Positions 1-17,822 of a stretch of DNA of 18,856 nt are shown piece by piece. Source of the stretch: an uncultured Acetatifactor sp. (lineage in GTDB: Bacteria > Bacillota > Clostridia > Lachnospirales > Lachnospiraceae); the NCBI GenBank assembly GCA_947626405.1, contig CANQSE010000006.1, forward strand, positions 1 through 18,856. Direction: 5' to 3'. The notes beneath the pieces were generated by a model. That model saw nothing but the letters and a program-made list of their open reading frames with translations, searched no databases and was not told the origin of the DNA. The translations under genes and the position numbers were made by a program. Position 1 is the stretch's first letter; the number at the start of each line of letters is the position of its first letter.

Positions 1-89
1 CTAAGCCGAGCGGAAGCGTGTCTGTCGGGAGAACATCGGCAGTACCGGGCGTGACTTGCAGGGAAAAGGCTGAACTGTTGCGACGGGGA

Positions 90-107
90 AGTAAAAGGAA
101 AGCGAAT
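90..107 (+). repeat. Direct repeat, copy 1 (18 nt)
   Basis: AGTAAAAGGAAAGCGAAT occurs here and again at 146-163, identical over 18 nt with a 56-nt offset. The similarity continues downstream: the next bases end in CTGACATT here and in TTGACATT after copy 2, where they form the -35 box. The duplicated unit is therefore about 31 nt and includes a -35-like element. Copy 1 has no matching -10 at the right distance. Confidence 0.8.
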
Positions 108-121
108 TGACCTGACATTGT

Positions 122-150
122 AACTCGGCAAACTCAGCAAAACTCAGTAA
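122..150 (+). repeat. Three imperfect 9-10 nt tandem units
   Basis: The units AACTCGGCA, AACTCAGCAA and AACTCAGTAA follow one another directly. They end 17 nt upstream of the -35 hexamer. The near 10-nt period puts the short A-runs on one face of the helix. That could bend the DNA or serve as a phased protein-binding site. The role is inferred from position only. Confidence 0.6.
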
Positions 151-163
151 AAGGAAAGCGAAT
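146..163 (+). repeat. Direct repeat, copy 2 (18 nt), next to the promoter
   Basis: This is identical to 90-107. It ends 4 nt upstream of the TTGACA hexamer at 168-173, so it lies where an UP element or activator site would be. See copy 1 for the extended similarity. Confidence 0.8.
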
Positions 164-167
164 AGTC

Positions 168-196
168 TTGACATTTACTAAAATGAACCTTATAAT
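168..196 (+). promoter_or_regulatory. Consensus sigma-A promoter of the peptide transporter
   Basis: TTGACA at 168-173 and TATAAT at 191-196 are both exact consensus hexamers, separated by 17 nt. Transcription would begin near 203, giving a leader of about 138 nt before the binding-protein start at 341. A second TTGACA at 219-224 lacks a good -10 at normal spacing. An exact-consensus promoter suggests strong basal expression, possibly held back by a repressor or by the structured leader. Confidence 0.9.
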
Positions 197-235
197 AAAT
201 GTTTAGTTGATAAAGCATTTGACATTAAACATGAA

Positions 236-308
236 TTTAACTTTTTAAAATGACTTTGGGACGGAGGAGATTATGAAAAAATTACGGTCCGCATTTTAAA
301 AAGTTAAA
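236..308 (+). promoter_or_regulatory. Leader hairpin with 17-bp perfect inverted repeat
   Basis: The arms at 236-252 and 292-308 are perfectly complementary over 17 nt (left arm TTTAACTTTTTAAAATG). Inside, GGAC at 259-262 can also pair with GTCC at 287-290. The loop holds a GGAGGAG ribosome binding site at 263-269 and a mini-ORF. The right arm is not followed by a T-run, so this is not a standard terminator. It lies wholly in the predicted transcript between promoter and first gene. A role in translational or stability control is an inference. As DNA it could instead be a long operator. Confidence 0.65.
273..299 (+). CDS. Possible leader peptide MKKLRSAF
   Basis: ATG at 273 is preceded by GGAGGAG (263-269) and opens an 8-codon frame ending in TAA at 297-299. 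The stop codon lies inside the right arm of the leader inverted repeat, so a ribosome finishing this frame would disturb the hairpin. The ribosome site plus ATG-AAA-AAA strongly resembles the real start of the binding-protein gene at 326-349. It may therefore be a relic duplicate start rather than a functional peptide. No run of regulatory codons is present, so classical attenuation by one amino acid is not supported. Confidence 0.35.
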   Translation: MKKLRSAF

Positions 309-320
309 GATAAATTTATC
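309..320. repeat. 12-bp perfect palindrome upstream of the ribosome site
   Basis: GATAAATTTATC is its own reverse complement and abuts the right arm of the leader hairpin, ending a few bases before the AAAAGGAGG ribosome site. It could be an operator half-site pair or just AT-rich symmetry. Being so AT-rich, it carries little weight alone. Confidence 0.4.
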
Positions 321-340
321 ATTAAAAGGAGGAAAAAGAC

Positions 341-3133
341 ATGAAAAAGAAACTGCTTGTATTAATGCTTGCATCCGTCATGGTTCTTTCATTGTCTTCC
401 TGCGGAGACGGGGGGGCGGATCCTGACTCGTCTTCGGCACCGACGGAAAGTCCTGATGCCGGAAGCAGCGACGGAACTGACGGAACTCAGACTTCTGATG
501 CAGATGCAAACTGGGACGGCGCGTATATCGACGCGGATGACTACAAGGCTTATATCAGCAATGATCTGGATCAGATTGTCATTGACATCCAGGAAGGGCT
601 GACGGCAGACGAAAAGACGGCGGTGGATGCGGCCGTTGCATCGGGAAAAGAGGCGATTGCGTCCGCCGGAACAATTGCCGACGTTCAGAAAGCCTATGAC
701 GATGCGTATAACGCTGTGCTCGAATGTATCCCCGTGGCAAACGGAATGATTTCATATTCCGACAGGAGCAACGAGGAGCGTCTTAAGATGCTTGGCGCTC
801 TGGAGACGTATGCGTACAGAACCGGTACTTGCGGAGTGCCTCTGTTTGAGGACGGCGTGATCCAGCTGATCAGCGAAAGAGTGACGCCCGGCACCGAGAA
901 TTATATTCCCGGCTATGGCTTCGGTATTCTGGCAGAGGGCAGCATCAACGCCGATCTGGATTATGAAACCAATGCCGACTGGAAAAGGTATTATCATATT
1001 CTGAACCCCAACGATCCCGGAACATTGAATTACTTAAACGACCAGGGTTCCGAGGTGCTTGATTTCTATAGTTATATCTCGGCATCATATTTTGGCAATT
1101 TCATGAATGATACCAAGGACGGATATGACTGGGTACCTGAGCTTGCAATGGAAAAGCCGGTTGCATTAAATGACGACGACGGAAACGGCACTGCAACCAA
1201 ATGGAGATTCCAGGTCCGCACAGGCGCGGAAGGGCTGAAGTATACGACAGCCTCCACAATTGAGTCCCGCGCGGCTTTCAACAACAGAGATGTGGAACTC
1301 GAGGATTATATTACACCGTATAAGCTGCTCCTCACTCAGAGCAACCAGATGTTCAGAGGCTCCGAGATGGCTAATAACACCACGGGCGCAATAGTCGGAG
1401 TAAAGGCGTTTTACGACGGCACCGCGAACGGTTTTAACCAGGATCTCTGGGATCAGGTCGGAATCAAGGCGTACGAGGAGGACGGCAAGAGCTATCTTGA
1501 GTTTGAGTTTACTCAGGAGATGACGCCCTTCTATGCGATGTACTATATCAGCAGCCCGCTGTATATGCCGGTTCCGCAGGATTTCATCGATCTTGTTACG
1601 GTAAAGAACTATCTTGGCTTTAACAGCGACGCAACGGAGACTCCTGTAGACAACTCCCTGTGCCTTGGCGCCTACTATCTTGAAGCCTATCATCAGGATC
1701 AGGAAGTGGTTTACAAGAAGAATCCCAATTATGTCTTTGCAGACACCAAATACAGTATTGAGGGCGTACATATTCGTATTTTCCCTGCGGCGAAAGAGGA
1801 TCCCGAGGCTTCCTTCAACGAGTTCCTGGCAGGACATACGGATGCTGCATCTATCCCTCAGACCAGACTGGACGAATACCGCAGCGACCCCAGAGCAAGG
1901 AAGACGACAGGAAGCTCTGTGTTTAAGCTGAATATAAATGCTTTGGATACGGAAGGATGGGAGGAGCTTTTCGGCGAGAACGGTACTGTTACACAGACCC
2001 CCAAGTCCGATTACTGGGAGGTTGAACCCGCTCTTTCCAACTCGCATTTCAGAAATGCCCTGCTTCTTTCAATTGACAGGAATACCTTTGCAAATGCGAG
2101 AGGCAGTATCGCTTCAGTGAATTACTTCTCGTCGGATTATCTGTGGAACCCTGAGGAGGGCCTTTCCTATGACTTGACTGACGAGCACGCAAAGGTAATA
2201 GCTCCCCTGGTTGAAGGCACCGACGGTGCAGGCTACTCTCTGGAGCTTGCAAGAGATTATTTCCGTGTGGCTCTCTCAGAGCTTGAGTCAGAAGGCAAAT
2301 ACACTCCCGGAACGGCGGACGCTCCTACGGAGATAAAGCTTGAGATCGCATGGATGTATCCTCAGCACGAAGAAAATTATCACAACGAGATTAAGGCTTA
2401 CCTGGAGAGCGCATTTAACGATCCCAGCGTCTGCGACAACAAGTATAAGCTCAATGTCGAGTTCTGGGTAGGAAACGAGTGGTCTGACGTTTATTATAAC
2501 AAAATGATGCTCGGACAGTTTGATCTGGGCTTTGGCTCAATCAACGGAAACAGCCTGAACCCTCTGGACTTCATGAACGTTTTGTCCTCCAACCAGGACA
2601 TCTCCGGAACATTCACCCTTAACTGGGGCACCGATACGAATGATCCTGATGCGTATCCTATAGTCTATGAAGGACAGCGCTTCTCCTATGACGCTTTCTA
2701 CCTTGCGGCCAACACGCAGGCAATCGTAAATGACGGAAGCAACAAGGACGCGTTTACATTCAACTATGAGCCGATCAAGAAGAACGACGACGGATCCTAC
2801 AGCGGCTCAATGGAGATAACCGCCGCGCTTCCCGACAGTACGACCCTGACCGTGACGGATGTGGTATGCTGCGATTATGAGCGTTACAACAACGGCGACG
2901 GACAGTACGAGGAGGAATCTGTCGAATGGGTGGCTGAGGACAAAGGAAACGGCGTGACAATGGTTACATTTACCGTTCCCGCGGAGCTTGCGGCGGCTTA
3001 TGTCGATGGCAACGGAACCTCCGAGAATCCTACGGGCGCAACCGGTTTCGACTTCTACTATGACTACGAGCTTGAAGGCAAGGTATCGTCCGGAAACTAC
3101 TATTCCACAAACGACAATTTTGTGGTAGAGTAA
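341..3133 (+). CDS. Oligopeptide ABC transporter substrate-binding lipoprotein (SBP family 5), oversized
   Basis: This is the likely extracellular receptor of the importer encoded downstream, capturing peptides and delivering them to the two permeases. Residues 1-20 are a lipoprotein signal (MKKK, then a hydrophobic stretch) with lipobox LSSC, so Cys21 would be lipidated. Residues 22-60 form a Ser/Asp/Gly-rich linker, and 75-130 are a predicted helical segment. The family 5 body follows, including the characteristic FRNALLLSIDR segment at 570-580. The last 120 or so residues look beta-rich. At 930 residues it is much longer than the usual 540-600 of OppA/DppA proteins; the excess lies at least partly in the N-terminal helical part and the C-terminal part. 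The start follows AAAAGGAGG at a good distance. It is the first gene of the operon, and a hairpin terminator directly after it probably makes it the most expressed member. Peptide rather than another substrate is inferred from the permease and ATPase types. Confidence 0.87.
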   Translation: MKKKLLVLMLASVMVLSLSSCGDGGADPDSSSAPTESPDAGSSDGTDGTQTSDADANWDGAYIDADDYKAYISNDLDQIVIDIQEGLTADEKTAVDAAVASGKEAIASAGTIADVQKAYDDAYNAVLECIPVANGMISYSDRSNEERLKMLGALETYAYRTGTCGVPLFEDGVIQLISERVTPGTENYIPGYGFGILAEGSINADLDYETNADWKRYYHILNPNDPGTLNYLNDQGSEVLDFYSYISASYFGNFMNDTKDGYDWVPELAMEKPVALNDDDGNGTATKWRFQVRTGAEGLKYTTASTIESRAAFNNRDVELEDYITPYKLLLTQSNQMFRGSEMANNTTGAIVGVKAFYDGTANGFNQDLWDQVGIKAYEEDGKSYLEFEFTQEMTPFYAMYYISSPLYMPVPQDFIDLVTVKNYLGFNSDATETPVDNSLCLGAYYLEAYHQDQEVVYKKNPNYVFADTKYSIEGVHIRIFPAAKEDPEASFNEFLAGHTDAASIPQTRLDEYRSDPRARKTTGSSVFKLNINALDTEGWEELFGENGTVTQTPKSDYWEVEPALSNSHFRNALLLSIDRNTFANARGSIASVNYFSSDYLWNPEEGLSYDLTDEHAKVIAPLVEGTDGAGYSLELARDYFRVALSELESEGKYTPGTADAPTEIKLEIAWMYPQHEENYHNEIKAYLESAFNDPSVCDNKYKLNVEFWVGNEWSDVYYNKMMLGQFDLGFGSINGNSLNPLDFMNVLSSNQDISGTFTLNWGTDTNDPDAYPIVYEGQRFSYDAFYLAANTQAIVNDGSNKDAFTFNYEPIKKNDDGSYSGSMEITAALPDSTTLTVTDVVCCDYERYNNGDGQYEEESVEWVAEDKGNGVTMVTFTVPAELAAAYVDGNGTSENPTGATGFDFYYDYELEGKVSSGNYYSTNDNFVVE

Positions 3134-3183
3134 ACCTGATTTATGATTTGACCTGTTGACTGAAATAATTTTAAAACGAAGGC

Positions 3184-3220
3184 AATGCGGCCGGATGGAT
3201 TGCCGGCCGCATTACTTTTT
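3184..3220 (+). terminator. Hairpin terminator between binding protein and permease genes
   Basis: An 11-bp perfect GC-rich stem (3184-3194 with 3203-3213, arm AATGCGGCCGG) with an 8-nt loop is followed by ACTTTTT. This has the form of an intrinsic terminator. The downstream permease gene has no obvious promoter of its own in the short gap, so partial read-through is likely. That would yield more binding protein than membrane components. A role as a stabilising 3-prime stem is also possible. Confidence 0.85.
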
Positions 3221-3247
3221 AGATACACTGAAATATAAGGGGGAACT

Positions 3248-4285
3248 ATGGCGAAATATGTAGCGAAAAGAATTGGTCTGGCTTTTATGACAGCCTTCAT
3301 CATACTTTCATTGACATTTATTCTTGTAAAGCTTCTCCCGTTTAACCGGCCGATCGGAGGAGATGCCCAGCAGATTGCTTATTTTGACAAACAGTATGCT
3401 CTGGGCTATGTTTATCGGTTTGACCATGAGGAAACGATGTACGGCGAGTATCTGTACAGGACGCCTTTGGAGCATGGACGCGCCAATTATTATTATCAGG
3501 TGCCTGTGATGACGCAGTATGTCAACTGGCTTAAGAACATAATCACAAAATGGGACTGGGGCTACAGCAAGACATTTCAGCCAAATGTCTCGGCTGCGGT
3601 TATTATCGGTTCGAGAATCGGATATTCAATACGTCTTAATATTTTTTCCGTTATTTTTTCCGTGCCCATCGGCATACTGCTGGGGATATGGGCAGCATTG
3701 AAAAAGAATACTATGACCGACCACGTCATCTCAACGCTGGTCATGGTCTTTATATCTATACCAAGCTTTGTGCTGATATCCTTTGTGCTTAGGATATTTG
3801 CCTACAATCTGAACTGGCTCCCGAGCGCATGGCCTACGGAGTCAGCCGACATAATGATGAAGGTGAAGGGATACATTATCCCTGTGTTCTGCCTGTCCTT
3901 TGGATCTGTCTGCGGCTACTGCCGGTTTACCAGAGCAGAGCTGTGTGAGGTCATGGAGAGCGACTATCTTCTGCTCGCGCGGACAAAGGGTCTGACAAGG
4001 CGTCAGGCGATTGTGCGCCACGCGCTGAAAAATGCAATGGTGCCGATTTTCCCTTCAATTCTTGCGGAATTTATCGGAATTTTGGGAGGCTCAATGATCC
4101 TGGAGCAGCTCTACAGTATCCCGGGAATAGGCAAACTGTTTGTTCTTGCTCTGAATTATAAGGACTACGATATCCTGTTTGTGGATATGGCGATTTTCAC
4201 CACGCTGGGTCTGCTGGCGGGTATATTGCTTGATCTGTCTTACGGTTTTATTGATCCGAGGATCAGAATGGGGGCGAAAAAGTGA
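3248..4285 (+). CDS. oppB: Oligopeptide ABC transporter permease, OppB/DppB type
   Basis: This is one of the two membrane halves of the importer channel. A first membrane helix lies at about 9-30 (KRIGLAFMTAFIILSL). It is followed by an extracytoplasmic segment of about 95 residues, then membrane helices near 127-151, 160-184, 208-230, 268-289 and 309-333. The EAA loop that docks on the ATPase is clear at about 234-267 (EVMESDYLLLARTKGL, then RRQAIVRHALKNAMVPI). The protein ends in the typical YGFIDPRIR. At 345 residues it is slightly longer than the usual 305-330, mostly from the first external loop. The start follows AAGGGGG. Its stop overlaps the start of the next permease, so translation is probably coupled. 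Dipeptide versus oligopeptide preference cannot be told from the sequence. Confidence 0.93.
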   Translation: MAKYVAKRIGLAFMTAFIILSLTFILVKLLPFNRPIGGDAQQIAYFDKQYALGYVYRFDHEETMYGEYLYRTPLEHGRANYYYQVPVMTQYVNWLKNIITKWDWGYSKTFQPNVSAAVIIGSRIGYSIRLNIFSVIFSVPIGILLGIWAALKKNTMTDHVISTLVMVFISIPSFVLISFVLRIFAYNLNWLPSAWPTESADIMMKVKGYIIPVFCLSFGSVCGYCRFTRAELCEVMESDYLLLARTKGLTRRQAIVRHALKNAMVPIFPSILAEFIGILGGSMILEQLYSIPGIGKLFVLALNYKDYDILFVDMAIFTTLGLLAGILLDLSYGFIDPRIRMGAKK

Positions 4286-6171
4286 TGGCCGATACGGAAA
4301 AAAACAGAGTTTTTAAAGAAGATGATTTCGTACTGATCCAGCAGGATAAGCGCGTTACGGACACAAAGCTTGAGACGAAGCCCACGACGTTTTTAAGAGA
4401 CGCGCTCAGGCGTTTCCGCAAAAACAAGGCTTCGGTCGCGGGCAGCTATATTCTCGGCATACTCATCATTCTGACCATACTTGTGCCGTCGCTTTCGTCT
4501 GCAAACATTACGACGGTAAATTCCGCGGAGGCTTTTTTGGCGCCAAAGCTTTTTGAGGCAGGCACGGGCTTCTGGGACGGCACGCGCAAGATAAAGCATG
4601 TGGTGTATGACAAAGACAACGAGATACCGGCTTTGTCGGAAAAAAACTCCGTTGCCTCCATCAAGTCGGCTCTTGTAGATATCAAGATCGATCCTGAGCC
4701 TACAAAGATTGATGCGGCAAACCCCTATGGGGAAGGCGGAGCCGTTATGCTCACCACGGACTCTGCGGTTGACAATAAAAACGCGTTGATGTATTCAAAG
4801 GCGACGTCCTTTGACACGAAGGGAAATTACACACTGGACGTTGTATTCAGGGATGAAGACGGAGTAAACAACTGCATGCTTGGAGAGTATGCCGTTTATC
4901 TCATGGCGGGAGACGAACAGATCATGCTTAAGGATTTTTCCAGAGATTACAGTCCCCTGTCCATAAATATAAGCGAAGCGCTCAAAGAGGCTTCTTTGGA
5001 TTCGATTCGTGCCCAGGTTTTTTTTGAAGTCAAATCCTCCGCCGAGAGCGTAAACTACATCCTGATTGAAAGCGCTGTTTTAAGCGCTGACGAATCCGTG
5101 TCCAATGCGGAGGAACTGGCGCAGATTTCAATTTCTGACGCCACGGATTTCATTAATGTATCGGACACATCAGATCTGGCCTACTGGTCCTGCACGGGCA
5201 GAAAAGGAATCCACGATTCCCTGATATACTACTGCGATTATGTTATAGATACGTATGACCTTGTGTACGGCCAGGGCGACGTGGTGACGTATCCTGCCAC
5301 TGAGGTAAACAGATGGATCGAGGCCGGATACTGTCTTTACGATTACAAGGTTGGTCCCGAATCGTTTGTAAAGCTTACCGACGACTGCCCCATTGACGTC
5401 GTGGAAGACCAGGCTATCATGGGGATTACAAAGAAGCTTTCCAGCATTACTGCAAGGGGCTGGGCGTATAAAAAGATGGGATACGACAAGATGCCGAAGT
5501 TTTTATTCGGAACCGACGCTTCAGGCTTCGATCTTTTTAAGAGAGCCTTTGCGGGACTGCGCACGTCGCTGATCCTGGGTATTTGTACTGCGGCCTTCTG
5601 CTTCTGCTTCGGACTGATATGGGGTTCAATCTCCGGATACTTTGGCGGCAACGTGGATATATTGATGGAAAGATTCTGCGATATTCTGGGCGGCGTGCCC
5701 TGGATCGTGGTCATGACGATATGTATTCTGCACCTGGGAAATAATTTCTTTACCTATGTGCTTGCACTCTGCATGACGGGGTGGATAGGAACGGCGGCGA
5801 GAACCAGAACGCAGTTTTACCGTTTTAAGGGACGTGAATACGTACTTGCGTCGCGCACTCTCGGATCGTCTGATGCAAGACTGATTTTTAAACATATTCT
5901 GCCCAATTCGCTTGGAACGATAGTAACCTCAAGCGTGCTGATGATACCGAGCAGTATTTTCTCGGAAGCTACGCTTGCGTATTTGAATCTTGGACTCCAG
6001 GGACGGCAGTCCTTCGGCGTAATGATGTCAAATAACCAGCCGTATCTTGGAGTATATCCGAATCTGGTTATATTTCCGGCTGTCGTCATGGCGCTGATGA
6101 TGATTTCATTCAACCTGTTCGGAAACGGACTGCGCGATGCGCTCAACCCGGCCCTGAAAGGAAGCGAATAA
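4285..6171 (+). CDS. oppC: Oligopeptide ABC transporter permease, OppC/DppC type, with large external domain
   Basis: This is the second channel half. The N-terminus is cytoplasmic and typical of OppC (TTFLRDALRRFRKNKASVAG), leading into membrane helix 1 at about 51-73. Instead of the short loop normally found there, about 330 residues follow (74-403) before the canonical FGTDASGFDLFKRAFAGLRTSL segment. The remaining helices come after that, with the EAA loop at about 508-541 (GREYVLASRTLGSS, FKHILPN). The family usually has about 300 residues; this has 628. The insert contains a beta-rich stretch near 180-270 and lies on the outer face by topology. ATG at 4285 overlaps the oppB stop as TGATG. 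GTG at 4282 is an in-frame alternative adding one residue, and both share the GGGGG ribosome site at 4270-4274. The frame is intact throughout, so the insert is a true domain. Confidence 0.92.
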   Translation: MADTEKNRVFKEDDFVLIQQDKRVTDTKLETKPTTFLRDALRRFRKNKASVAGSYILGILIILTILVPSLSSANITTVNSAEAFLAPKLFEAGTGFWDGTRKIKHVVYDKDNEIPALSEKNSVASIKSALVDIKIDPEPTKIDAANPYGEGGAVMLTTDSAVDNKNALMYSKATSFDTKGNYTLDVVFRDEDGVNNCMLGEYAVYLMAGDEQIMLKDFSRDYSPLSINISEALKEASLDSIRAQVFFEVKSSAESVNYILIESAVLSADESVSNAEELAQISISDATDFINVSDTSDLAYWSCTGRKGIHDSLIYYCDYVIDTYDLVYGQGDVVTYPATEVNRWIEAGYCLYDYKVGPESFVKLTDDCPIDVVEDQAIMGITKKLSSITARGWAYKKMGYDKMPKFLFGTDASGFDLFKRAFAGLRTSLILGICTAAFCFCFGLIWGSISGYFGGNVDILMERFCDILGGVPWIVVMTICILHLGNNFFTYVLALCMTGWIGTAARTRTQFYRFKGREYVLASRTLGSSDARLIFKHILPNSLGTIVTSSVLMIPSSIFSEATLAYLNLGLQGRQSFGVMMSNNQPYLGVYPNLVIFPAVVMALMMISFNLFGNGLRDALNPALKGSE

Positions 6172-6205
6172 AAAAGTAGAAAGATAACGGAAAGGTGTGT
6201 AAGAT

Positions 6206-7711
6206 ATGGCTTCGCAGGATAAGGTTTTATCGGTAAACAATCTTGTCATCAACTTTAAAACGGACAACGGCATCCTGAAAGCCGTCCGTGACATATCCTT
6301 TGATTTGTACCGCGGTGAAACGCTTTGTATCGTGGGTGAATCGGGTTCGGGCAAATCGGTTACTTCAAAGGCTATTATGGGTATTCTCGCCAATAATGCC
6401 ATAATTGAAAACGGAAACATCATGTACAGGGGAGAGAATCTGCTCGAGGTTTCCGAGGACGAATTTTACAAGATACGAGGGCACAAGATCGGCATGATTT
6501 TCCAGGATCCACTGTCCTCGCTCAATCCGATTGTGCGCATAGGAAAACAGATAACGGAAGCCATGCTGATAAATTCAGACAAGCTGAAGCTTATGTACCA
6601 TGACCTTATCAGCGACGATCTCATACGCTATAAAAACACTCTGTCCAAGATGAACATCGAGATAGCGGCGGAAAAACGCAAGCTTGATGAGTTTATCGCA
6701 GAGACGGCCGCAAAGGAAAACGTAAGCTCCGAGGAGCGTGCCGCCGACAAAAAGGCTGTTAAGGAAAAAAAGCTTGCCTTTAAGGAATTTGAAAAGAACA
6801 CCCGCGAGGAGTACGAAAAGAAGGCAAAGGAGCTTAAGGCTGTACTTACGCAGACGGAAAAGAAAGCAAAACAGCAGGTAAAGGAATACAAGGAAAAGGT
6901 AACCGCAGAGCACAAGGCCCGCCTTGCGGAGCTTAAAGCCAGTCTGGCAGGGCTTGGCAAAAACGGTTCGGCAGACGACGGCGACAGGGAGAAAATCCTT
7001 AAGCAGATCGAGGAGGAGAAGCTTGAGTTTACAAACAAGCTGAAGCTCACAAAGGCGGAAGCCAAAAAACGCGCGCTGAACATTATGCGCGAGGTGGGAA
7101 TACCTGAGCCTGAGCGTCGTTTCAGGCAGTACCCCTTTGAGTTTTCCGGAGGTATGAGACAGCGTATTGTAATTGCAATCGCGTTGACCGCATCCCCCGA
7201 AATTCTGATATGCGACGAGCCTACCACGGCGCTTGACGTGACGATTCAGGCGCAGATACTTGAGCTTATAAACAGAATAAAGGCCGAGAGGAACCTCTCA
7301 TGTATTTTTATCACGCATGACCTTGGAGTGGTGGCTAACATGGCCGACAGAGTGGCTGTCATGTACGCGGGAAAGATTGTGGAATACGGCACTGCCGAGG
7401 AAATTTTTTACGATCCAAAACACCCTTACACATGGGCGCTTCTTTCAAGTATTCCGGATGTGGACAGCAAGGAGAAGCTCGAAGCGATCCCGGGGACGCC
7501 GCCAAATATGATTTACCCTCCAAAGGGCGACGCATTTGCCGCAAGGAGCAGGTACGCCATGAATATCGACTACAGGGAGGAGCCGCCAATGTTCAAGGTA
7601 AGCGACACACATTATGCGGCCACGTGGCTTCTTGATCCCCACGCGCCAAAGGTCGAAATGCCCAGGATTGTGAGCGAGAGAATAAGAATTTCACTTGAGG
7701 AAGACGCATAA
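6206..7711 (+). CDS. oppD: Oligopeptide ABC transporter ATPase, OppD/DppD type, with coiled-coil insertion
   Basis: This is one of two cytoplasmic ATPases powering uptake. The catalytic set is complete: Walker A GESGSGKS 44-51, Q-loop Gln100, signature SGGMR 314-318, Walker B ILICDE 333-338, D-loop ALD 342-344 and H-loop His371. The family normally has 320-350 residues; this has 501. The excess is a Lys/Glu/Ala-rich helical block at about 124-281, between the Q-loop region and the conserved NIMREVGIPEPERRFRQYP that precedes the signature. Likely breaks near 171-174 and 250-259 suggest three helices forming a coiled-coil arm. The C-terminal Opp domain is present (HPYTWALLSSIPD, AIPGTPPN). However, the positions of the usual four cysteines hold D442, S448, D455 and T473. 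The start follows AAAGGTG 34 nt after oppC. Confidence 0.93.
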   Translation: MASQDKVLSVNNLVINFKTDNGILKAVRDISFDLYRGETLCIVGESGSGKSVTSKAIMGILANNAIIENGNIMYRGENLLEVSEDEFYKIRGHKIGMIFQDPLSSLNPIVRIGKQITEAMLINSDKLKLMYHDLISDDLIRYKNTLSKMNIEIAAEKRKLDEFIAETAAKENVSSEERAADKKAVKEKKLAFKEFEKNTREEYEKKAKELKAVLTQTEKKAKQQVKEYKEKVTAEHKARLAELKASLAGLGKNGSADDGDREKILKQIEEEKLEFTNKLKLTKAEAKKRALNIMREVGIPEPERRFRQYPFEFSGGMRQRIVIAIALTASPEILICDEPTTALDVTIQAQILELINRIKAERNLSCIFITHDLGVVANMADRVAVMYAGKIVEYGTAEEIFYDPKHPYTWALLSSIPDVDSKEKLEAIPGTPPNMIYPPKGDAFAARSRYAMNIDYREEPPMFKVSDTHYAATWLLDPHAPKVEMPRIVSERIRISLEEDA

Positions 7712-7744
7712 AGACATATTGCCTGTTGCATAAATGGAGGAAAG

Positions 7745-9025
7745 ATGAGCGAGACAAAAAGACAATACACGGACAATACCGGTGATAATGATTTTAATAA
7801 TCGGTACAATATCAATCCGAAGGTGAAACAGAAGCCGGAGCTTCGGGAAAATGGCATCATTCTTTCCGTAAGGCACCTTAAGCAGTTTTTCTTTTTCGGA
7901 AAGGGTGTCAACCGGCAGAAGCTCAAAGCGGTCTCAGACGTCTCCTTTGACATAAAAGAGGGAGAATGTCTCGGGATTGTGGGTGAGAGCGGATGCGGAA
8001 AGACGACTACAGGAAGAAGCATTATACGCCTCTACGATATTACCTCGGGCGCAGTCTACTATAAAGGCGTCCGCATAAGCGCCGGAACGAGATGGAACAG
8101 GAAAGAGATTAAGTGGTCCAGGATCCGGCTCAACAAAGAGATAAAGGAAATCAGGGAAAAGCTGGAGAGCGATATCGCGGAGGTTGACAAAGAAAGCCCG
8201 GACGGCCAGGCGCGGATTGCCCGGATGAGGGAACAGGCGGAGAAGGATATCGCTGAGCGCAGGGCTAAAATAGAGGAAATTAAAAAAGAGCAGACTGAAA
8301 AAATCCGGCAGATTAAGTATGACAATGAGCATACAAGCAGGAAGCTTCTCAACGAGATTCAGATGATTTTTCAGGATCCCGTGGACTCCCTTGATCCCAG
8401 AATGACGGTTGAGGATATTATACAGGAGGGTCTTAAGATCCAGGGCTTTAAAAATAAGCAGGAAAATCATAAAAAGGTAGTGGAAATGCTCAACCGTGTG
8501 GGGCTTGTAGAGGAACACGCCTCACGCTATCCGCATGAGTTTTCCGGCGGTCAGAGACAGAGGATCGGTATCGCCAGGGCGCTTGTCATGAATCCCAGGC
8601 TTTTAATCTGCGACGAGCCGATTTCGGCGCTGGATGTCTCGATCCGCGCCCAGGTAATAAATCTTTTGAACGAGCTGCAGGAGGAGCTTAATCTTTCGAT
8701 TATATTTATTGCGCACGACCTGTCGGTGGTGAGATATTTCTGCGATACGATAGTTGTCATGTATTTCGGAAAGGTAGTCGAGAAAGCGCCGAGCGCCGAG
8801 CTTTTCGCCCACCCTACGCATCCGTATACAAAGGCGCTGCTGTCGGCCATTCCCAAGCCGAATCCCAAATCGGAGAGAAAGAGAAAGCGTATTCTCTATG
8901 AGCCCGACAAGGTTCACAATTACTCTGACGACGACAAGCCGAGTCTCAGAGAGCTGTGGGAGAATCATTTCGTGTACTGCAACAACGCCGAATATGAAAA
9001 ATATATGAAAGAATGGAAAGCGTGA
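7745..9025 (+). CDS. oppF: Oligopeptide ABC transporter ATPase, OppF/AmiF type, with helical-hairpin insertion
   Basis: This is the partner ATPase of OppD. Motifs are complete: Walker A GESGCGKT 80-87, Q-loop Gln210 (MIFQDP), signature SGGQR 267-271, Walker B LLICDE 286-291 and H-loop His324. An N-terminal extension of about 35 polar residues precedes the nucleotide-binding fold. Between the Walker A domain and the Q-loop, about residues 117-200 form a charged insert. It looks like two long helices with a turn near SPDGQ (151-155). The usual length is 310-330; this is 426. The C-terminal tail (YEPDKVHNYSDDDKPSLREL, then HFVYCN) resembles the Streptococcus AmiF tail and lacks the cysteine cluster of enteric OppF. 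The ATG follows GGAGGAAAG, 33 nt after oppD. It ends 2 nt before the next gene. Confidence 0.93.
   Translation: MSETKRQYTDNTGDNDFNNRYNINPKVKQKPELRENGIILSVRHLKQFFFFGKGVNRQKLKAVSDVSFDIKEGECLGIVGESGCGKTTTGRSIIRLYDITSGAVYYKGVRISAGTRWNRKEIKWSRIRLNKEIKEIREKLESDIAEVDKESPDGQARIARMREQAEKDIAERRAKIEEIKKEQTEKIRQIKYDNEHTSRKLLNEIQMIFQDPVDSLDPRMTVEDIIQEGLKIQGFKNKQENHKKVVEMLNRVGLVEEHASRYPHEFSGGQRQRIGIARALVMNPRLLICDEPISALDVSIRAQVINLLNELQEELNLSIIFIAHDLSVVRYFCDTIVVMYFGKVVEKAPSAELFAHPTHPYTKALLSAIPKPNPKSERKRKRILYEPDKVHNYSDDDKPSLRELWENHFVYCNNAEYEKYMKEWKA
9015..9020 (+). promoter_or_regulatory. Ribosome binding site favouring the 9028 start
   Basis: GGAAAG lies 7 nt upstream of ATG 9028, inside the end of oppF. 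An in-frame ATG at 9013 would overlap oppF by 13 nt and has no comparable site in front of it, so 9028 is preferred. Confidence 0.55.
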
Positions 9026-9027
9026 CG

Positions 9028-9378
9028 ATGGGGTCATGGAAAAAATATCTTGCGGCGTTTCTTGTCAATACTGCTTTTACGCTGCTTGTCCTGTTTTTGA
9101 GAGGTTTTGAATTAAAGATATACTATGTGGATGCCTTCAGCGTGGCCGGAGGCATTTCCGTATTATTGGCGCTTTTGTTCTGGGTCTCCCGGGCAGGCGC
9201 CTTTGACACGATTCGATACGGTTTTTCAACGCTGTATTCCGGAAGGAAATACAAGGATCTCTACGAATACAGCAGCGCAAAGAGAGAAAAGCGAGACAGG
9301 AGGGGCGGGATCTCAAAGCCCTTTTTTCTGGTTGGAATCGGTTTTCTGGCCTGCTCGCTTTTGCTTTCGATTTTGTAG
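9028..9378 (+). CDS. Small membrane protein, DUF3899-like
   Basis: This protein of 116 residues has three predicted membrane helices, at about 7-25, 34-53 and 97-115. A strongly basic loop lies between helices 2 and 3 (YSGRKYKDLYEYSSAKREKR), which places that loop in the cytoplasm. The segment around SRAGAFDTIRYGFSTL resembles the DUF3899 family of Firmicutes, whose function is not established. It starts 2 nt after oppF, so it is probably translated with the transporter operon. It might be an accessory of the transporter or simply a passenger gene. An alternative ATG at 9013 adds five residues. Confidence 0.75.
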   Translation: MGSWKKYLAAFLVNTAFTLLVLFLRGFELKIYYVDAFSVAGGISVLLALLFWVSRAGAFDTIRYGFSTLYSGRKYKDLYEYSSAKREKRDRRGGISKPFFLVGIGFLACSLLLSIL

Positions 9379-9424
9379 GATGGAGACATCGGGGATTTTC
9401 CCGTAACGCGCGCAAACTGATGTG

Positions 9425-9432
9425 GGAGGTGA
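9425..9432 (+). promoter_or_regulatory. uvrB: Ribosome binding site deciding the uvrB start
   Basis: GGAGGTGA matches the anti-Shine-Dalgarno sequence over 8 nt and lies 10 nt upstream of GTG 9443. The farther in-frame GTG at 9422 would sit before this site and has no ribosome site of its own. Confidence 0.75.
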
Positions 9433-9442
9433 ATCTGATCCC

Positions 9443-11431
9443 GTGTTATTTAAGCTGCACAGTGATTACAAACCCACCGGAGACCAGCCGAGGGCCATCG
9501 CAGAGCTGGTGAAGGGTTTCAGGGAGGGAAACCAGTTCCAGACCCTTCTTGGCGTAACAGGCTCGGGCAAAACGTTTACGATGGCAAATGTTATTCAGGC
9601 TCTACAGAAGCCCACGCTTGTCATTGCCCACAACAAGACGCTTGCCGGCCAGCTCTACGGGGAATTTAAGGAATTTTTTCCGGAGAACGCGGTGGAATAT
9701 TTTGTCTCGTACTACGATTACTATCAGCCGGAGGCATACGTGCCCTCCTCCGACACTTATATCGCAAAGGATTCGGCCATCAACGACGAGATCGACAAGC
9801 TCAGGCTCTCCGCCACGGCGTCTTTGACTGAGCGCAGGGATGTTATTGTGGTGGCAAGCGTCTCCTGTATATACGGCCTTGGCAGCCCTGACGAGTACCA
9901 GGACATGGTTGTTTCCCTGCGCCCCGGCATGGTAAAGGACAGGGACAAGGTGCTGAGGGAGCTTGTGGACATCCAGTACACACGCAATGAGCTTGATATG
10001 CAGCGCGGATGCTTCCGCGTCCACGGCGATGTGATTGAGGTTTACCCCGCCCAGGGTGGAGATTATTTTATAAGAATCGAATTTTTCGGAGACGAGATTG
10101 ACAGGATTACGGAGGTGGAACCCCTGTCCGGAAAGGTGCATGCGACATTAAACCATGTCGCCATTTTCCCCGCGTCTCATTACGTGGTATCACAGGATAA
10201 AATCAAAGCAGCCTGCGAAACTATAGAAAAAGAGCTCGAGGAGCGCGTAAGGTACTTTAAGGCGGAAGACAAGCTCATCGAAGCTCAGCGCATTGCGGAG
10301 CGGACAAACTTTGATATTGAGATGCTTCGGGAGACCGGCTTCTGTTCCGGAATCGAGAATTATTCCAGGCATTTAAGCGGCATGCCCGAAGGCGCTCCCC
10401 CTATGACGCTGATGGATTTCTTCCCGGAGGACTTCCTCATCATCATAGACGAATCGCATATGACCATACCGCAGATTCGCGGCATGTACGCGGGCGACCG
10501 ATCCAGAAAGACCACTCTGGTTGACTACGGCTTCAGGCTCCCGTCCGCTCTGGACAACAGGCCCTTAAATTTCAGCGAATTTGAGTCCCACATTGACCAG
10601 ATGCTATTTGTATCCGCAACGCCGTCCGACTATGAGGCGGAGCACGAGCTCCTTAGGACCGAACAGATTATCCGCCCCACAGGACTTCTTGACCCCAGGG
10701 TTGACGTGAGACCGGTGGAGGGACAGATAGATGATCTGATTTCCGAGGTCAACAGCGAGACGCAGAAGCACAACAAGGTGTTGATAACGACGCTCACAAA
10801 GCGCATGGCTGAGGATCTCACCGACTATATGAAGGAGGTGGGAATCCGCGTCAAGTACCTTCACTCTGACATCGATACCCTGGAGAGAGCGGAGATTATA
10901 CGCGATATGCGCCTTGACGTGTTCGACGTGCTGGTCGGAATAAATCTTCTCAGGGAGGGACTTGACATTCCGGAGATTTCCCTCGTGGCAATCCTTGACG
11001 CCGATAAGGAGGGATTTTTGAGAAGCAGCACCTCGCTGATTCAGACTATCGGCCGCGCGGCCAGAAACGCGGAAGGCCATGTGATAATGTACGCCGACAC
11101 CGTTACGGAATCCATGCGGACTGCCCTGGACGAGACTAACCGCCGCCGGGAAATACAGATGAAATATAATCAGGAGCACAATATCACTCCTCAGACAATT
11201 CAAAAGAGCGTGAGAGAGCTCATAACAATCTCAAAGGTCATCGCCAGGGAGGAGATGAGGTTTGAGAAGGATCCGGAATCCATGAGCCGCATGGAGCTTG
11301 AGAAGCTTATTGCGGACATTCAGAAGAAGATGCAGAGGGCCGCCGCGGATCTGAACTTTGAGGCCGCCGCGGAGCTCAGAGACAAGATGATTGAGCTCAA
11401 GGAAAAGCTGCGTGATATGGATAAGGAATAA
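9443..11431 (+). CDS. uvrB: Excinuclease ABC subunit UvrB
   Basis: UvrB is the central damage-verifying helicase-like protein of nucleotide excision repair. It receives DNA from UvrA and then recruits UvrC. The start is chosen at GTG 9443, after GGAGGTGA. This gives [19 protein letters not shown], which aligns with the usual UvrB N-terminus, and a length of 662 residues, normal for the family. Walker A GVTGSGKT lies at 37-44. The damage-probing beta-hairpin region is at about 90-101 ([12 protein letters not shown]). The DESH box is at 336-339, and the helicase motif VI region contains QTIGRAARN. The C-terminal UVR domain that contacts UvrC lies at about 613-655. uvrA follows after 45 nt. I saw no GAAC-N4-GTTC SOS box in the 64-nt upstream gap and no terminator separating it from the transporter genes. 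Confidence 0.97.
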
Positions 11432-11476
11432 GAGGCATCCGGTATCAACCGGAGGGCGTCTTAAGGAGAGGTCATA

Positions 11477-14329
11477 ATGGAAGAAGCAAAGAAGATGCGT
11501 CCCAGGGAATATATAAAAATCCGCGGAGCAAGGGAGCATAATCTTAAAAATATCGATGTCGATATTCCAAGAAACGAACTTGTAGTTCTGACCGGACTGT
11601 CAGGTTCCGGCAAATCGTCTCTGGCCTTTGACACAATATATGCCGAGGGGCAGCGCCGTTACATGGAGTCGCTGTCCTCGTACGCGCGTATGTTCCTGGG
11701 CCAGATGGAAAAGCCAAACGTGGAGAAGATAGAGGGGCTTTCGCCGGCCATCTCCATCGATCAGAAATCAACTAACCGCAATCCCCGCTCGACGGTTGGA
11801 ACCGTGACGGAGATCTATGATTATTTCCGCCTGCTCTATGCCAGAATAGGTATTCCGCACTGTCCGGTCTGCGGAAGGGAGATTGCCAGGCAGACGGTGG
11901 ATCAGATGGTGGATCAGATCATGGCTCTGCGCGAGGGCACAAGGATCCAGCTTCTTGCCCCCGTTGTCAGAGGCAGAAAGGGCGAGCACGCCAAGGTGCT
12001 TGAGAGGGCAAGGAGAGCGGGATATGTCCGAGTGCGCGTGGACGGAAGCCTTTATGAGCTGACCGAAGACATACCGCTTGACAAAAACGTGAAGCACAAC
12101 ATTGACATTGTGGTGGACAGGCTTGTGGTGAAGGACGGGATCGAAAGACGTATCGCGGATTCCATCGAGAACGTGCTCAACCTTTCGGAGGGACTTCTGG
12201 TGGTGGATGTTGTTGACGGCGAGCCAATGACGTTCAGCCAGAATTTTGCCTGCCCCGACTGCGGCATAGGCATAAGCGAGATTGAGCCGAGAAGCTTTTC
12301 CTTCAACAATCCGTTCGGCGCCTGCCCTGTCTGTCTCGGACTGGGCTATAAAATGGAGTTTGACGTTGATCTGATGATACCGGATCAGACGCTGAGCATA
12401 AACGAGGGCGCGATAGCGGTGACGGGATGGCAGTCCTGCGCCGATAAGACAAGCTTTACAAACGCGGTGCTGAGGGCGTTATGCAAGGAGTATAATTTTG
12501 ACCTCGACACTCCGTTTGAGAAATACCCTGAAAAGATCAAAAAAATCCTGATACATGGTACTGACGGAAAGGAAGTGGAGGTTCATTATCAGGGTCAGCG
12601 CGGCAGGGGCGTCTATCCGGTAGCCTTTGAGGGACTGATACGCAACGTGGAGCGCAAATACAGGGAGACATTTTCGGAGACCATGAAGCAGGAATACGAA
12701 AGCTTTATGCGTATTACGCCCTGCAGGGAATGTAACGGCATGCGCCTTAAAAAGGAATCTCTTGCGGTGACGGTCTGCGATAAGAATATTTATGAGATAA
12801 CGGCCATGTCAATCAGCGAGCTCAACGTCTTTCTTAAGACGATGGGACTGACCTCACAGCAGCAGTTAATAGGAGGTCAGATTCTCAAGGAAATAGGCGC
12901 AAGAGTGGGATTTCTGGTGGATGTGGGACTGGAATACCTGTCTCTGTCCAGGGCGACAGGAACGCTCTCCGGAGGCGAGGCGCAGCGTATACGGCTTGCG
13001 ACTCAGATAGGATCCGGGCTTGTTGGCGTCTGTTATATACTTGACGAACCGAGCATCGGCCTGCACCAGAGGGATAACGACAAGCTTCTTAACACCTTAA
13101 AGAGTCTCAGGGATCTTGGGAACACGCTGATCGTGGTAGAGCATGACGAGGACACAATGCTTGCGGCGGACTATGTGGTTGATATCGGCCCCGGGGCCGG
13201 AGCGCACGGAGGAGAGGTTGTCGCCTGCGGCACCGCGGAGGAAATAATGCAGGTGCCGGAGTCGGTAACTGGACAGTACCTCAGCGGGAAAATGAAAATT
13301 CCCGTTCCGGCGACGCGCAGGAAACCGTCAGGGTGGCTTAAGGTGCTGGGGGCGCAGCAGAACAATCTCAAGAATATTAACGTGGATTTCCCGCTGGGGG
13401 TGATGACATGTGTGACAGGCGTGTCAGGTTCTGGCAAGAGTTCTCTGGTAAATGAGATACTTTATAAAAGACTGGCAAGGGATCTGAACAGGGCGAGGTG
13501 CATCCCCGGAAAACACAGAGATATAAAGGGCGAGGAGCAGCTTGACAAGGTAATAGCAATCGATCAGTCTCCGATCGGAAGGACGCCGCGCTCCAATCCC
13601 GCAACATACACGGGTGTTTTCGACCAGATCAGGGATCTGTTTGCGTCAACGGCCGACGCAAAGGCGAAGGGCTATGGGAAGGGCAGATTCAGCTTCAACG
13701 TAAAGGGAGGACGCTGCGAGGCTTGCGGCGGGGACGGCATAATAAAGATAGAGATGCACTTTCTCCCCGATGTGTACGTACCGTGCGAGGTATGCGGCGG
13801 GAAGCGCTACAACAGGGAGACGCTTGACGTAAAATATAAAGGGAAAAGCATATATGACGTACTGGAAATGACGGTGGAGGAAGCCTGCGGCTTTTTTGAA
13901 AATATGCCGTCGATACGCCGAAAGATCGAGACACTCTACGACGTGGGCCTGTCGTATGTAAAGCTCGGGCAGCCCTCCACAACTCTGTCGGGAGGCGAGG
14001 CACAGAGGATAAAGCTTGCGGCGGAGCTGTCAAGACGCAGCACGGGCAGGACAATATATATCCTTGACGAGCCCACCACCGGACTGCATTTTGCGGACGT
14101 ACACAAGCTTGTGGAAATTCTTCACAGGCTTGCCGACGGCGGTAACACGGTGGTTGTAATAGAGCACAATCTTGATGTGATAAAAACTGCGGATTACATT
14201 ATAGACATCGGCCCCGAGGGCGGCGACGCAGGAGGCACGGTCATTGCCAGGGGTACTCCGGAGGAGGTTGCCGCAAACAAAAAATCCTACACCGGAATGT
14301 ACGTTAAAAAAATGCTTGACAGGGCATAA
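11477..14329 (+). CDS. uvrA: Excinuclease ABC subunit UvrA
   Basis: UvrA is the ATP-driven dimer that scans DNA for bulky lesions and loads UvrB. Two ABC-type ATPase modules are present, with Walker A motifs at 40-47 (GLSGSGKS) and 648-655 (GVSGSGKS), each later followed by an LSGGEAQRI signature. Zinc-binding cysteines are intact: C259, C262, C283 and C286 in the first half, and C747, C750, C770 and C773 in the second. Additional CPVCG and CRECNG pairs fit the extra zinc site known in Gram-positive UvrA. The length of 950 residues is normal. The ATG follows AAGGAGAGG. A strong terminator lies about 75 nt beyond the stop, so it is the last gene of this transcript. Confidence 0.97.
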
Positions 14330-14403
14330 ATTTAAAAAATTTATTGATAAGCACTAAAGAAATCGGCACGGCAAGCCGAAAAAATAATTACTAAGGCATG
14401 GAA

Positions 14404-14451
14404 GCGGAGAATTGAGCGGACGGAACCGTTCTTTTCTCCGCGTTATTTTTT
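14404..14451 (+). terminator. Intrinsic terminator after uvrA
   Basis: GCGGAGAA (14404-14411) pairs perfectly with TTCTCCGC (14434-14441). After a two-base mismatch the stem continues with GAGCGG against CCGTTC, closing a 6-nt loop. The stem is followed by GTTATTTTTT. A weaker 5-bp hairpin with an A-run lies just upstream at 14363-14379. This cleanly separates the uvr transcript from the MreB cluster. Confidence 0.85.
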
Positions 14452-14496
14452 AAGAAATTTTATTTACGTAATTTTTAAAAAATTTCATTTACCCCT

Positions 14497-14524
14497 ATGA
14501 AAACGGAAAGATTTCGGTTATAAT
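14497..14524 (+). promoter_or_regulatory. Sigma-A-like promoter of the MreB/flagellar rod cluster
   Basis: TATAAT at 14519-14524 is an exact -10. The best -35 is ATGAAA at 14497-14502, matching 4 of 6 with 16-nt spacing. The DNA upstream (14452-14490) is very rich in A and T runs, as in UP elements. No match to the flagellar sigma-28 form (TAAA, then GCCGATAA) was seen. The leader would be about 58 nt. Confidence 0.65.
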
Positions 14525-14588
14525 AAACAATGTATGACCAGATTTATCCGAAGAAAATAAGAATCAATTTGGAAAGGGGTAACAGCGG

Positions 14589-15584
14589 ATGCAGTGTACG
14601 GATATTGGTATTGATTTAGGTACAGCCAGCATTTTAGTATACATCAGAGGAAAAGGAGTCGTCTTAAAGGAACCCTCTGTTGTAGCTTTCGATAGAGATA
14701 CAAACAAGATAAAGGCCATAGGAGAGGATGCACGCCTGATGCTCGGAAGGACGCCCGGCAACATTGTAGCCGTACGCCCCCTGCGCCAGGGAGTTATCTC
14801 CGATTACACCGTAACCGAGAAGATGATGAAATATTTCATCCAGAAGGCGCTGGGCAGGAGAGCATTTCGCAAACCCCGCATCGCCGTCTGTGTCCCGAGC
14901 GGAGTTACTGAGGTGGAAAAAAAGGCCGTTGAGGATGCGACCTATCAGGCCGGAGCGCGTGAGGTTTCAATCATTGAGGAGCCTATCGCGGCGGCGATCG
15001 GAGCCGGAATTGACATTTCAAAGCCCTGCGGGAACATGATCGTCGATATCGGCGGCGGAACCTCCGATATTGCGGTGATTTCACTCGGCGGAACCGTCGT
15101 AAGCGCTTCCATAAAAATTGCGGGTGACGATTTTGACGAAGCCATTGTGCGTTACATGAGAAAGAAGCATAATCTCCTGATCGGCGAGAGAACAGCGGAG
15201 GATATGAAGATAAAGATCGGCTCCGCCTACGCCAGACCGGAGGTCGATTATATGGATGTGAGGGGCCGTAACCTTGTGACGGGTCTGCCAAAGACAGTCA
15301 AGGTTTCATCGGAGGAGACGGAGGAGGCTCTTAAGGAGACCACGGCTCAGATTGTTGAGACGATACACAGCGTGCTTGAGAAAACGCCGCCCGAGCTTGC
15401 GGCGGATATTGCGGACAGGGGAATAGTCCTCACGGGGGGAGGCAGTCTGCTTCGCGGGCTGGAGGAGCTTATCTCCGCAAAAACCGGAATCAACACAATG
15501 ACGGCGGAGGATCCGATGACCGCTGTTGCGATAGGGACCGGAAAGTATGTGGAATTTCTTTCCGGATACAGGGACAACACATAA
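14589..15584 (+). CDS. mreB: Rod shape-determining protein, MreB/Mbl family
   Basis: This is a bacterial actin that forms membrane-associated filaments and guides cell-wall synthesis along the cell cylinder. The actin-fold motifs are present: phosphate-1 loop IGIDLGTAS at about 6-14, phosphate-2 DIGGGTSD at 153-160 and the adenosine-binding VLTGGGSLLRG at 280-290. The length of 331 residues is normal. The ATG lies 9 nt after AAAGGGG. Its position directly before two flagellar rod genes matches mbl-flhO-flhP of Bacillus subtilis, so it may be the Mbl paralogue rather than the mreBCD one. No mreC or mreD is adjacent, which supports that reading. Sequence motifs alone do not separate the paralogues. 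Confidence 0.93.
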   Translation: MQCTDIGIDLGTASILVYIRGKGVVLKEPSVVAFDRDTNKIKAIGEDARLMLGRTPGNIVAVRPLRQGVISDYTVTEKMMKYFIQKALGRRAFRKPRIAVCVPSGVTEVEKKAVEDATYQAGAREVSIIEEPIAAAIGAGIDISKPCGNMIVDIGGGTSDIAVISLGGTVVSASIKIAGDDFDEAIVRYMRKKHNLLIGERTAEDMKIKIGSAYARPEVDYMDVRGRNLVTGLPKTVKVSSEETEEALKETTAQIVETIHSVLEKTPPELAADIADRGIVLTGGGSLLRGLEELISAKTGINTMTAEDPMTAVAIGTGKYVEFLSGYRDNT

Positions 15585-15603
15585 AAAGAGGAAGGATGAC
15601 GAG

Positions 15604-16383: not shown

Positions 16384-16419
16384 TAAGAGATAATTAAGTG
16401 ACGGAAAGGAAGTATACAT

Positions 16420-17235: not shown

Positions 17236-17308
17236 AGGCAGGACTCGTGACGGCGCAATATAAGACGCCCTGATTTGACAGGGAAAAGGACAGAGGGAGA
17301 CGGAAATT

Positions 17309-17719: not shown

Positions 17720-17765
17720 GCAGGAGCCATCACGGCTTTTGCCATATCTTCAGCAAAATAATTAC

Positions 17766-17793
17766 AGGCTGCTTATATCGGGCAGCCTTCTTT
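17766..17793 (+). terminator. Probable terminator after the flagellar rod cluster
   Basis: AGGCTGC (17766-17772) pairs with GCAGCCT (17782-17788) around a 9-nt loop and is followed by TCTTT. The stem is short and the T-run is interrupted, so termination may be partial. It lies between the FlgJ-like gene and the helicase gene. Confidence 0.6.
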
Positions 17794-17822
17794 GCACATC
17801 ACGGACAAATCAGGGAGAACAA

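Follow-up and report, generated by a model that had tools for sequence, protein, structure and literature searches.

An enlarged Opp/Ami-type importer operon with an apparently circularly permuted binding protein in an uncultured Acetatifactor

The window described here, an 18,856-nucleotide stretch of DNA (contig CANQSE010000006.1, positions 1 to 18,856, forward strand) from an uncultured Acetatifactor sp., carries an enlarged importer operon whose binding protein, OppA, appears from sequence profiles to be a natural circular permutant, in which the final ~75 residues of the canonical fold would stand between a new N-terminal helical region and the canonical start. Five intact genes, oppA-oppB-oppC-oppD-oppF, occupy positions 341-9025 of the + strand. 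Pfam recognizes SBP_bac_5 in OppA, BPD_transp_1 in OppB, BPD_transp_1 and OppC_N in OppC, and ABC_tran and oligo_HPY in both ATPases. This is the make-up of Opp/Dpp-type systems: an SBP_bac_5 protein, two BPD_transp_1 permeases and two oligo_HPY ATPases in a single operon. Judged by these families, the system is an ATP-driven Opp/Ami-type importer, the putative substrate being peptides. A prior reading of the same DNA made without database searches (the sequence-only reading) had called a complete Opp-type importer with a slightly long OppB, and both calls held. The host is a gut bacterium represented by a metagenome-assembled genome (84.85% complete, with the locus on contig 6), in which the only OppC_N match at an expect value (E) of 1e-4 is at the present locus. 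The unusual sizes are not an assembly slip, since similar enlarged sizes recur in close relatives. The genes are as follows.

341..3133, + strand: oppA, lipoprotein binding protein, 930 amino acids (aa), SBP_bac_5, apparently circularly permuted (open reading frame, ORF; Pfam E 1.2e-22 at residues 362-754; profiles)
3248..4285, + strand: oppB, permease of near-normal size, 345 aa (BPD_transp_1 E 2.1e-37)
4282..6171, + strand: oppC, permease, 629 aa, GTG start (OppC_N 36-88, BPD_transp_1 444-626)
6206..7711, + strand: oppD, ATPase, 501 aa (ABC_tran, oligo_HPY)
7745..9025, + strand: oppF, ATPase, 426 aa (ABC_tran, oligo_HPY)
9013..9378, + strand: gene that overlaps the oppF end and encodes a small membrane protein (DUF3899) of 121 aa (PF13038 E 5.3e-11)

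The rearranged binding protein

Relatives were collected with OppB, which has no large insert, as bait. OppB matched in 40/291 genomes of a class sample (E 1e-40) and in 27/348 genomes of a family sample (E 1e-60), the window's own genome being included in both counts. Stretches were taken for 40 of the 49 other class-sample matches, for all 27 other family-sample matches and for nine related loci (eight labelled Acetatifactor or Lachnospiraceae, one Oscillospiraceae). A tree of the 63 operons with complete parts was built by a quick search from core columns only, with insert columns dropped and support given by the Shimodaira-Hasegawa-like approximate likelihood ratio test (SH-aLRT). Rows that were incomplete, fused, duplicate or with parts missing were omitted (L031, L036, L038, L044, L056, L061, L062, L066, L067, L108, L113, L118, L123, L128). 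The window and seven other operons form a subclade (support 100), which together with 17 more operons, here the sister clade, makes up a clade of 25 rows (support 100). The sister of this 25-row clade is a group of eight operons of nearly normal size (support 100); in these normal-sized sisters OppC is moderately longer (112-116 residues from the start of the motif in the first transmembrane segment, TM1, to the GTD motif) and OppA has 604-640 aa. The parts of the window's OppA are listed below.

341..403, + strand: signal sequence with lipobox-like LSSC, Cys21 (invariant in 8/8 aligned)
518..730, + strand: residues 60-130, added helical region with three predicted helices (AlphaFold2, AF2, helices 65-86, 89-108, 112-129)
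770..994, + strand: residues 144-218, apparent C-terminal end of the canonical fold relocated N-terminally (hmmsearch 1.7e-6, 1.4e-7; hhalign 2.6e-6, 3.6e-7)
1013..2623, + strand: residues 225-761, fold body from the canonical N-terminal start (hhalign 4e-33 to sister-clade OppA, 4.5e-30 to normal-sized sisters)
2738..3130, + strand: residues 800-930, added C-terminal beta-sandwich (Ig-like)

We take LSSC with Cys21 to be a lipobox. Sequence profiles place the pieces of OppA in permuted order here and in canonical order in the sisters. Aligning the OppA profiles gave a main pairing that joins window-type columns 224-803 to columns 92-575 in the normal-sized sisters, another that joins the signal sequences, and a third that joins window-type 150-204 to 577-630 at the sisters' C-terminal end (E 2e-4, probability 47%). 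In separate hhalign comparisons, the N-terminal piece was matched to the final 75 residues of OppA, at E 2.6e-6 for the sister clade and 3.6e-7 for the normal-sized sisters. The window-type C-terminal piece gave no match to canonical C-termini (best E 0.0079, probability 5%), and neither did a reversed control (best E 0.091).

A search with hmmsearch in a database of 1382 ORFs led to the same region. A profile built from the final 80 residues of the OppAs in the sister clade, with the window's subclade excluded, matched OppA residues 144-218 at E 1.7e-6, the top score among the matches listed, which are those outside the two sister groups. With the normal-sized sisters added, and the window's subclade again excluded, the same residues were matched at E 1.4e-7. 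The first profile matched 10/10 of the subclade OppAs that hold the region, always between residues 130 and 274 (E 1.7e-6 to 0.0048); in the eleventh subclade protein, L036, OppA is cut by the contig end, and L108 repeats L037. The binding proteins of other groups among the matches listed are met near their C-terminus by the C-terminal profiles, and five ORFs outside the binding proteins match elsewhere, with sequence E 0.08 or worse. In the reverse direction, a profile from the window's subclade matched 15 OppAs, three of them normal-sized and 12 from the sister clade, in every case at the C-terminal end (8/15 at E 0.01 or better, best 2.6e-5); of the window's subclade itself, the matches listed show the window, L038 and L108 only. 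With a wider sister-group profile, the moved segment falls in the final portion of family members of solved structure, reaching as far as residue 508 of 536 in 5kzt.

The rearrangement belongs to the window's subclade, because sister-clade OppA is collinear with that of the normal-sized sisters. Window-type OppA was found in 3/348 family-sample genomes, the own genome included and at most two candidates being scored per genome, and in the nine related loci. The OppA reading frames of L032 and L034 are measured from start codons further upstream. In L038, OppA is split over two reading frames. Among the matches listed, we found no permuted oligopeptide-binding or family-5 protein in the literature searched, which here and below means open-licence papers.

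Several results weigh against the permutation. The moved piece gave no match to the C-termini of the two ordinary groups that are more distant (E 0.22 and 0.25), and a profile of this piece made from the subclade alone picked up none of the binding proteins of solved structure, even at E up to 10. As it reaches neither these distant groups nor the solved structures, its connection to the canonical fold is by way of the sister groups. When the N-terminal piece is compared with whole OppA profiles, it matches the signal-sequence region best. The AF2 model of OppA has a mean predicted local distance difference test score (pLDDT) of 47.8, and the permuted fold is not visible in it; the block at 60-130 reaches 46-76 in this low-confidence model. 

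In wider comparisons, the window's OppA had no match among the sequences of solved structures, either as a single sequence (E up to 0.001) or as a profile (up to 0.01), and the matches listed in structure comparisons are generic. Pfam finds nothing in the window's OppA and OppC at E up to 5 beyond SBP_bac_5 and the two permease families; among relatives' OppAs, DUF1542 is matched in 3/8 (best E 0.0086) and AbpA-like in one (0.00019).

Residues 144-218 could alternatively be an unrelated added domain with a chance likeness to the canonical C-terminus, as the short reach of the subclade-only profile and the want of a confident OppA model would allow. We consider this highly improbable: the profiles match in both directions, in all ten proteins holding the region and at the expected ends, the window-type C-terminal piece gives no such match, and the junction runs directly into the canonical start. 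The sequence-only reading had described large in-frame additions in four subunits. This stood for OppC, OppD and OppF, but in OppA the change is not a simple addition, as its C-terminal ~75 residues are apparently relocated.

Additions to the permease and the ATPases

The inserts in the other three subunits are as follows.

4501..5505, + strand: OppC insert, presumably extracellular, from TM1 to the GTD motif, about residues 74-408 (364 residues versus 49 in ordinary OppC)
4729..5151, + strand: OppC residues 150-290, beta-sandwich inside the ectodomain
6569..7039, + strand: charged insert of helix-like composition in OppD, following the Q-loop, about residues 122-278 (Q-loop to signature 215 versus 60; 40% K/R/E/Q, 2% G/P)
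8075..8314, + strand: charged insert of helix-like composition in OppF, from Walker A to Q-loop, about residues 111-190 (motif spacing 120 versus 41-42; 49% K/R/E/Q)

The window's OppC counts 364 residues from where the TM1 motif starts to the GTD motif; this distance is 49 in 16 tree rows, 48 in one and 74-116 in 16 more. The extra length of ~315 residues lies after TM1 at a single site and, going by the family, would be external to the membrane. Among 10 aligned sequences, 111/335 ectodomain positions are invariant, and so are the cysteines at 304, 318, 351 and 369, which are possible disulphide partners. One explanation for such external additions is a role as glycan- or wall-binding modules, by which the importer or its substrates (e.g., glycopeptides) would be kept at the cell surface; we regard this as quite unlikely. 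In another operon, L079, OppC is long (472 aa), and the alignment does not place the extra length at the TM1-GTD site.

A separate clade on the tree (L050, L059, L064, L070, L072) also has a large OppC ectodomain, in which RCC1_2 was found in 3/3 scanned (E 2e-34 to 8e-30). The OppF of this RCC1-type clade has 187-227 residues from Walker A to Q-loop, and its OppD is ordinary. Across the clades the added parts are mostly not the same: the insertion sites are common to them, and what is inserted there is exchanged.

The Walker A, Q-loop, signature, Walker B and H-loop patterns are intact in both OppD and OppF. From Q-loop to signature, OppD has 215 residues versus 58-61 in the 38 rows outside the 25-row clade (~155 extra, single site), and from Walker A to Q-loop, OppF has 120 residues versus 39-47 in the 33 rows that lack this insert (~78 extra, single site). 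The base of the OppD insert reads N.DKLK.MY.D.ISDDLIRYKNT, where the letters shown are invariant in nine sequences. The OppF insert has a weak heptad signal (z 2.05, 18/500 shuffles as high). The site of the OppD insert resembles that of SMC/Rad50 proteins; matches to SMC_N fell below the 40-bit cut-off (28.6 for sister-clade OppD, 17.3 for RCC1-clade OppF). One sister-clade OppF, in L113, reads 844 aa, with ~400 extra residues before Walker A.

The C-terminal part of OppD past the H-loop (the 7500-7711 region of the window) holds 0-2 cysteines in 38/38 rows of the window's clade and the sister groups. The same part holds 4-8 in 20/20 ordinary rows, where the cysteines are presumably iron-sulphur ligands, and 5-6 in the five RCC1-clade rows. 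This cysteine loss is common to the enlarged clade and the normal-sized sister groups. Thus, of the earlier statement that all catalytic and docking motifs are kept, the part on the catalytic patterns stood for the motifs checked, but the ordinary OppD C-terminal cysteine cluster is missing.

Distribution of the enlargements and a linked gene

OppA, OppC, OppD and OppF are all enlarged in 25/25 rows of one clade of the 63-operon tree. Sorted by size thresholds, the rows fall into 25 with all four enlargements and 33 with none (5 of the 33 are without a scored OppA). The remaining five operons have OppC and OppF inserts without the OppD insert (OppA is large in one of them and unscored in another), and the OppD insert after the Q-loop occurs in 0/38 rows outside the enlarged clade. 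One operon, L154, has an OppD insert at another site, an OppC of 330 aa and standard OppF sites. Two loci outside the tree, L171 and L172, have standard ATPase sites next to an OppC of 656-657 aa and a large SBP_bac_5 protein (841 and 823 aa); these represent a third kind of large OppC ectodomain. The fewest changes on the tree are one for the OppD insert and two each for the OppA, OppC and OppF enlargements. Co-evolution statistics on these changes gave two independent pairs and p 0.5 at best, too few changes to show coupling. The subclass is real, but it is tied by descent. The sequence-only reading had suggested a co-evolved subclass, perhaps adapted to large substrates, added regulation or clustering, and had named inserts occurring independently of each other as what would refute it. 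The subclass is indeed monophyletic, and within its 25 rows the enlargements never separate; elsewhere they do, with OppC and OppF only in five operons, OppC with a large binding protein in two and OppD alone, at another site, in one. Among the matches listed, no description of this enlarged subclass was found in the literature searched.

What the additions do is less certain, and a further set of results weighs against the explanation of the operon proposed below. The OppC ectodomains of the clade's two halves match over 33 membrane-proximal residues only (probability 51%), and the OppD inserts of the two halves do not match (probability 1.6%); the OppF inserts match weakly (probability 64%). 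Because the OppC and OppD additions are not detectably homologous between the halves, no single shared function is required, and a coupled package is not supported. Mean column identity is 76.0% in the OppC ectodomain (69.3% in the sandwich) versus 90.5% in the permease core, and the AF2 model of OppC has a mean pLDDT of 51.1. A coiled coil in the OppD insert was rejected, the 3.5-residue periodicity giving z 0.14 with 187/500 shuffles as high. The differing OppC domains of the two halves and the lower conservation of the ectodomain favor neutral or lineage-specific elaboration at insertion-tolerant loops, in which the 25 operons would share a lineage and not a function and the importer would work like any Opp. 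The same OppC site holds an unrelated RCC1-type propeller in another clade, and insert sizes vary over the 25 rows (172-454 residues from Q-loop to signature in OppD, 74-150 from Walker A to Q-loop in OppF), which also suits this explanation. We lean against it, while granting it some weight, as all four enlargements are kept throughout the clade, a third of the OppC ectodomain including the four cysteines is invariant, and so is the base of the OppD insert.

The gene after oppF is linked to this lineage. Its product scores 43.2 bits against the Pfam gathering cut-off of 23.4 for DUF3899. A locus was counted as linked if a DUF3899 ORF lay no more than 450 bases past oppF, the loci scored being those with 600 bases available there. 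A DUF3899 ORF follows oppF in 10/10 loci of the window's subclade and 17/17 of the sister clade, i.e., in 27/27 enlarged operons, and in 0/8, 0/5, 0/5 and 0/22 loci of the other groups (0/40). Two of the 19 sister-clade loci were excluded from this count, having less than 600 bases after oppF or no usable oppF end. The profile used was grown on its own hits; the window's sequence alone found 25 of these ORFs, and Pfam confirms DUF3899 in 8/8 sampled. DUF3899 as a mark of the enlarged clade alone is ruled out, as 6/9 normal-sized sister loci have a copy upstream of oppA, in either orientation. The link therefore appears to be older than the enlargement. In the family sample, 28/319 genomes have a DUF3899 match, 24 over the cut-off. 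By comparison of the match lists by hand, 19/28 of these genomes have an OppB match from the bait search (E 1e-60) on the same contig, about 2-5 kilobases away, 2/28 have one on another contig and 7/28 have no OppB match. No paper naming DUF3899 was found in the literature searched. DUF3899 is probably an accessory membrane subunit of the lineage, as its linkage suggests. Downstream of the DUF3899 gene lie uvrB-, uvrA-, mreB- and flgG-like genes, named from their ORFs alone.

Proposed working and comparison with known systems

As a whole, the operon would be explained by a permuted-receptor Opp/Ami importer with an OppC clamp, regulatory ATPase inserts and a DUF3899 accessory, a reading to which we give about an even chance. 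OppA would consist of new N-terminal helices, the moved C-terminal segment, the canonical body and a beta-sandwich at the new C-terminus, and the permutation would therefore join the lipid anchor to the fold at an unusual point. The external domain of OppC most likely clamps or guides the tethered OppA onto the translocator, by analogy with AmiC. The charged OppD and OppF inserts would project into the cytoplasm, where their role is most likely in assembling or regulating the ATPase pair and not in catalysis. DUF3899 probably acts as an accessory membrane subunit. In canonical OppA the N- and C-terminus share one domain, and the stretch that precedes the final strands belongs to the other lobe. 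Given this layout, the tether would move to the other lobe. A bolder version, which we consider rather doubtful, is a six-component lineage acting as one device, in which a permuted family-5 receptor, an OppC clamp, helical arms of the ATPases and DUF3899 work together and the tether crosses the hinge.

A family-5 permutation with canonical-order sisters in one operon lineage would make the effect of permuting a tethered receptor on docking and transport addressable. The DUF3899 linkage gives a testable partner to a protein family that goes unnamed in the literature searched. That separate clades carry unrelated domains at one OppC site marks it as a point where importers accept new parts. What seems new here is the enlarged, permuted-receptor layout of a known Ami/Opp-type importer, its absence in print not being established by the literature searched.

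None of the named Opp equivalogs (Opp3B, Opp3C, E. coli OppB/C/D/F) scored above the NCBI curated cut-off: OppB scored 211 against 480 for Opp3B and OppC 271 against 450 for Opp3C, and for OppD and OppF none was over the cut-off among the best 25 of 186 and the best 25 of 187 NCBIfam matches. The best NCBIfam matches of the two ATPases are the Mycoplasma OppD and OppF models (MMSYN1_0167, 561 positions; MMSYN1_0168, 649 positions), which are long too. The window's OppD (486 bits, cut-off 740) and OppF (382, cut-off 800) are both under. In a genome of the window's family, the OppD of L154 (7741-9507) is the one genome hit over the Mycoplasma OppD cut-off, with 756 bits; it has 279 residues before the Q-loop and an adjoining OppB of 527 aa. 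The insert of this Mycoplasma-type OppD lies before the Q-loop, whereas that of the window's OppD lies after it, and a Mycoplasma-type origin was dropped on this position. Closer in layout are the RCC1-type operons, which have the large OppC ectodomain and the OppF insert at the same two sites as the window. They differ in the RCC1 repeats of the ectodomain, in a standard OppD and in forming a separate clade.

For the binding protein, the only permuted ABC binding protein recognized among the matches listed in the literature searched is TpMglB-2 (Tp0684). It is described as a circularly permuted glucose-binding lipoprotein, for which "Type Ic" or "Cluster Bc" was proposed; the type occurs in treponemes and Gram-positive bacteria, and its authors suggest a link to tethering (PMC4990184). 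On that account, TpMglB-2 and the window's OppA would both be natural circular permutations of tethered ABC binding proteins, but TpMglB-2 binds sugar and is of another class, whereas OppA is an SBP_bac_5 protein.

The closest system is the pneumococcal Ami/Ali importer (AmiC, AmiD, AmiE and AmiF with AmiA and AliA-D), where AmiC is the OppB-type subunit. The published report on this system gives AmiD 308 residues and places external domains on AmiC, which are proposed from a model to clamp the binding protein (PMC11192437). The window shares with Ami a large, presumably external domain on a permease subunit. In Ami, however, this feature is on AmiC, whereas here it is on OppC, together with two enlarged ATPases and an apparently permuted OppA.

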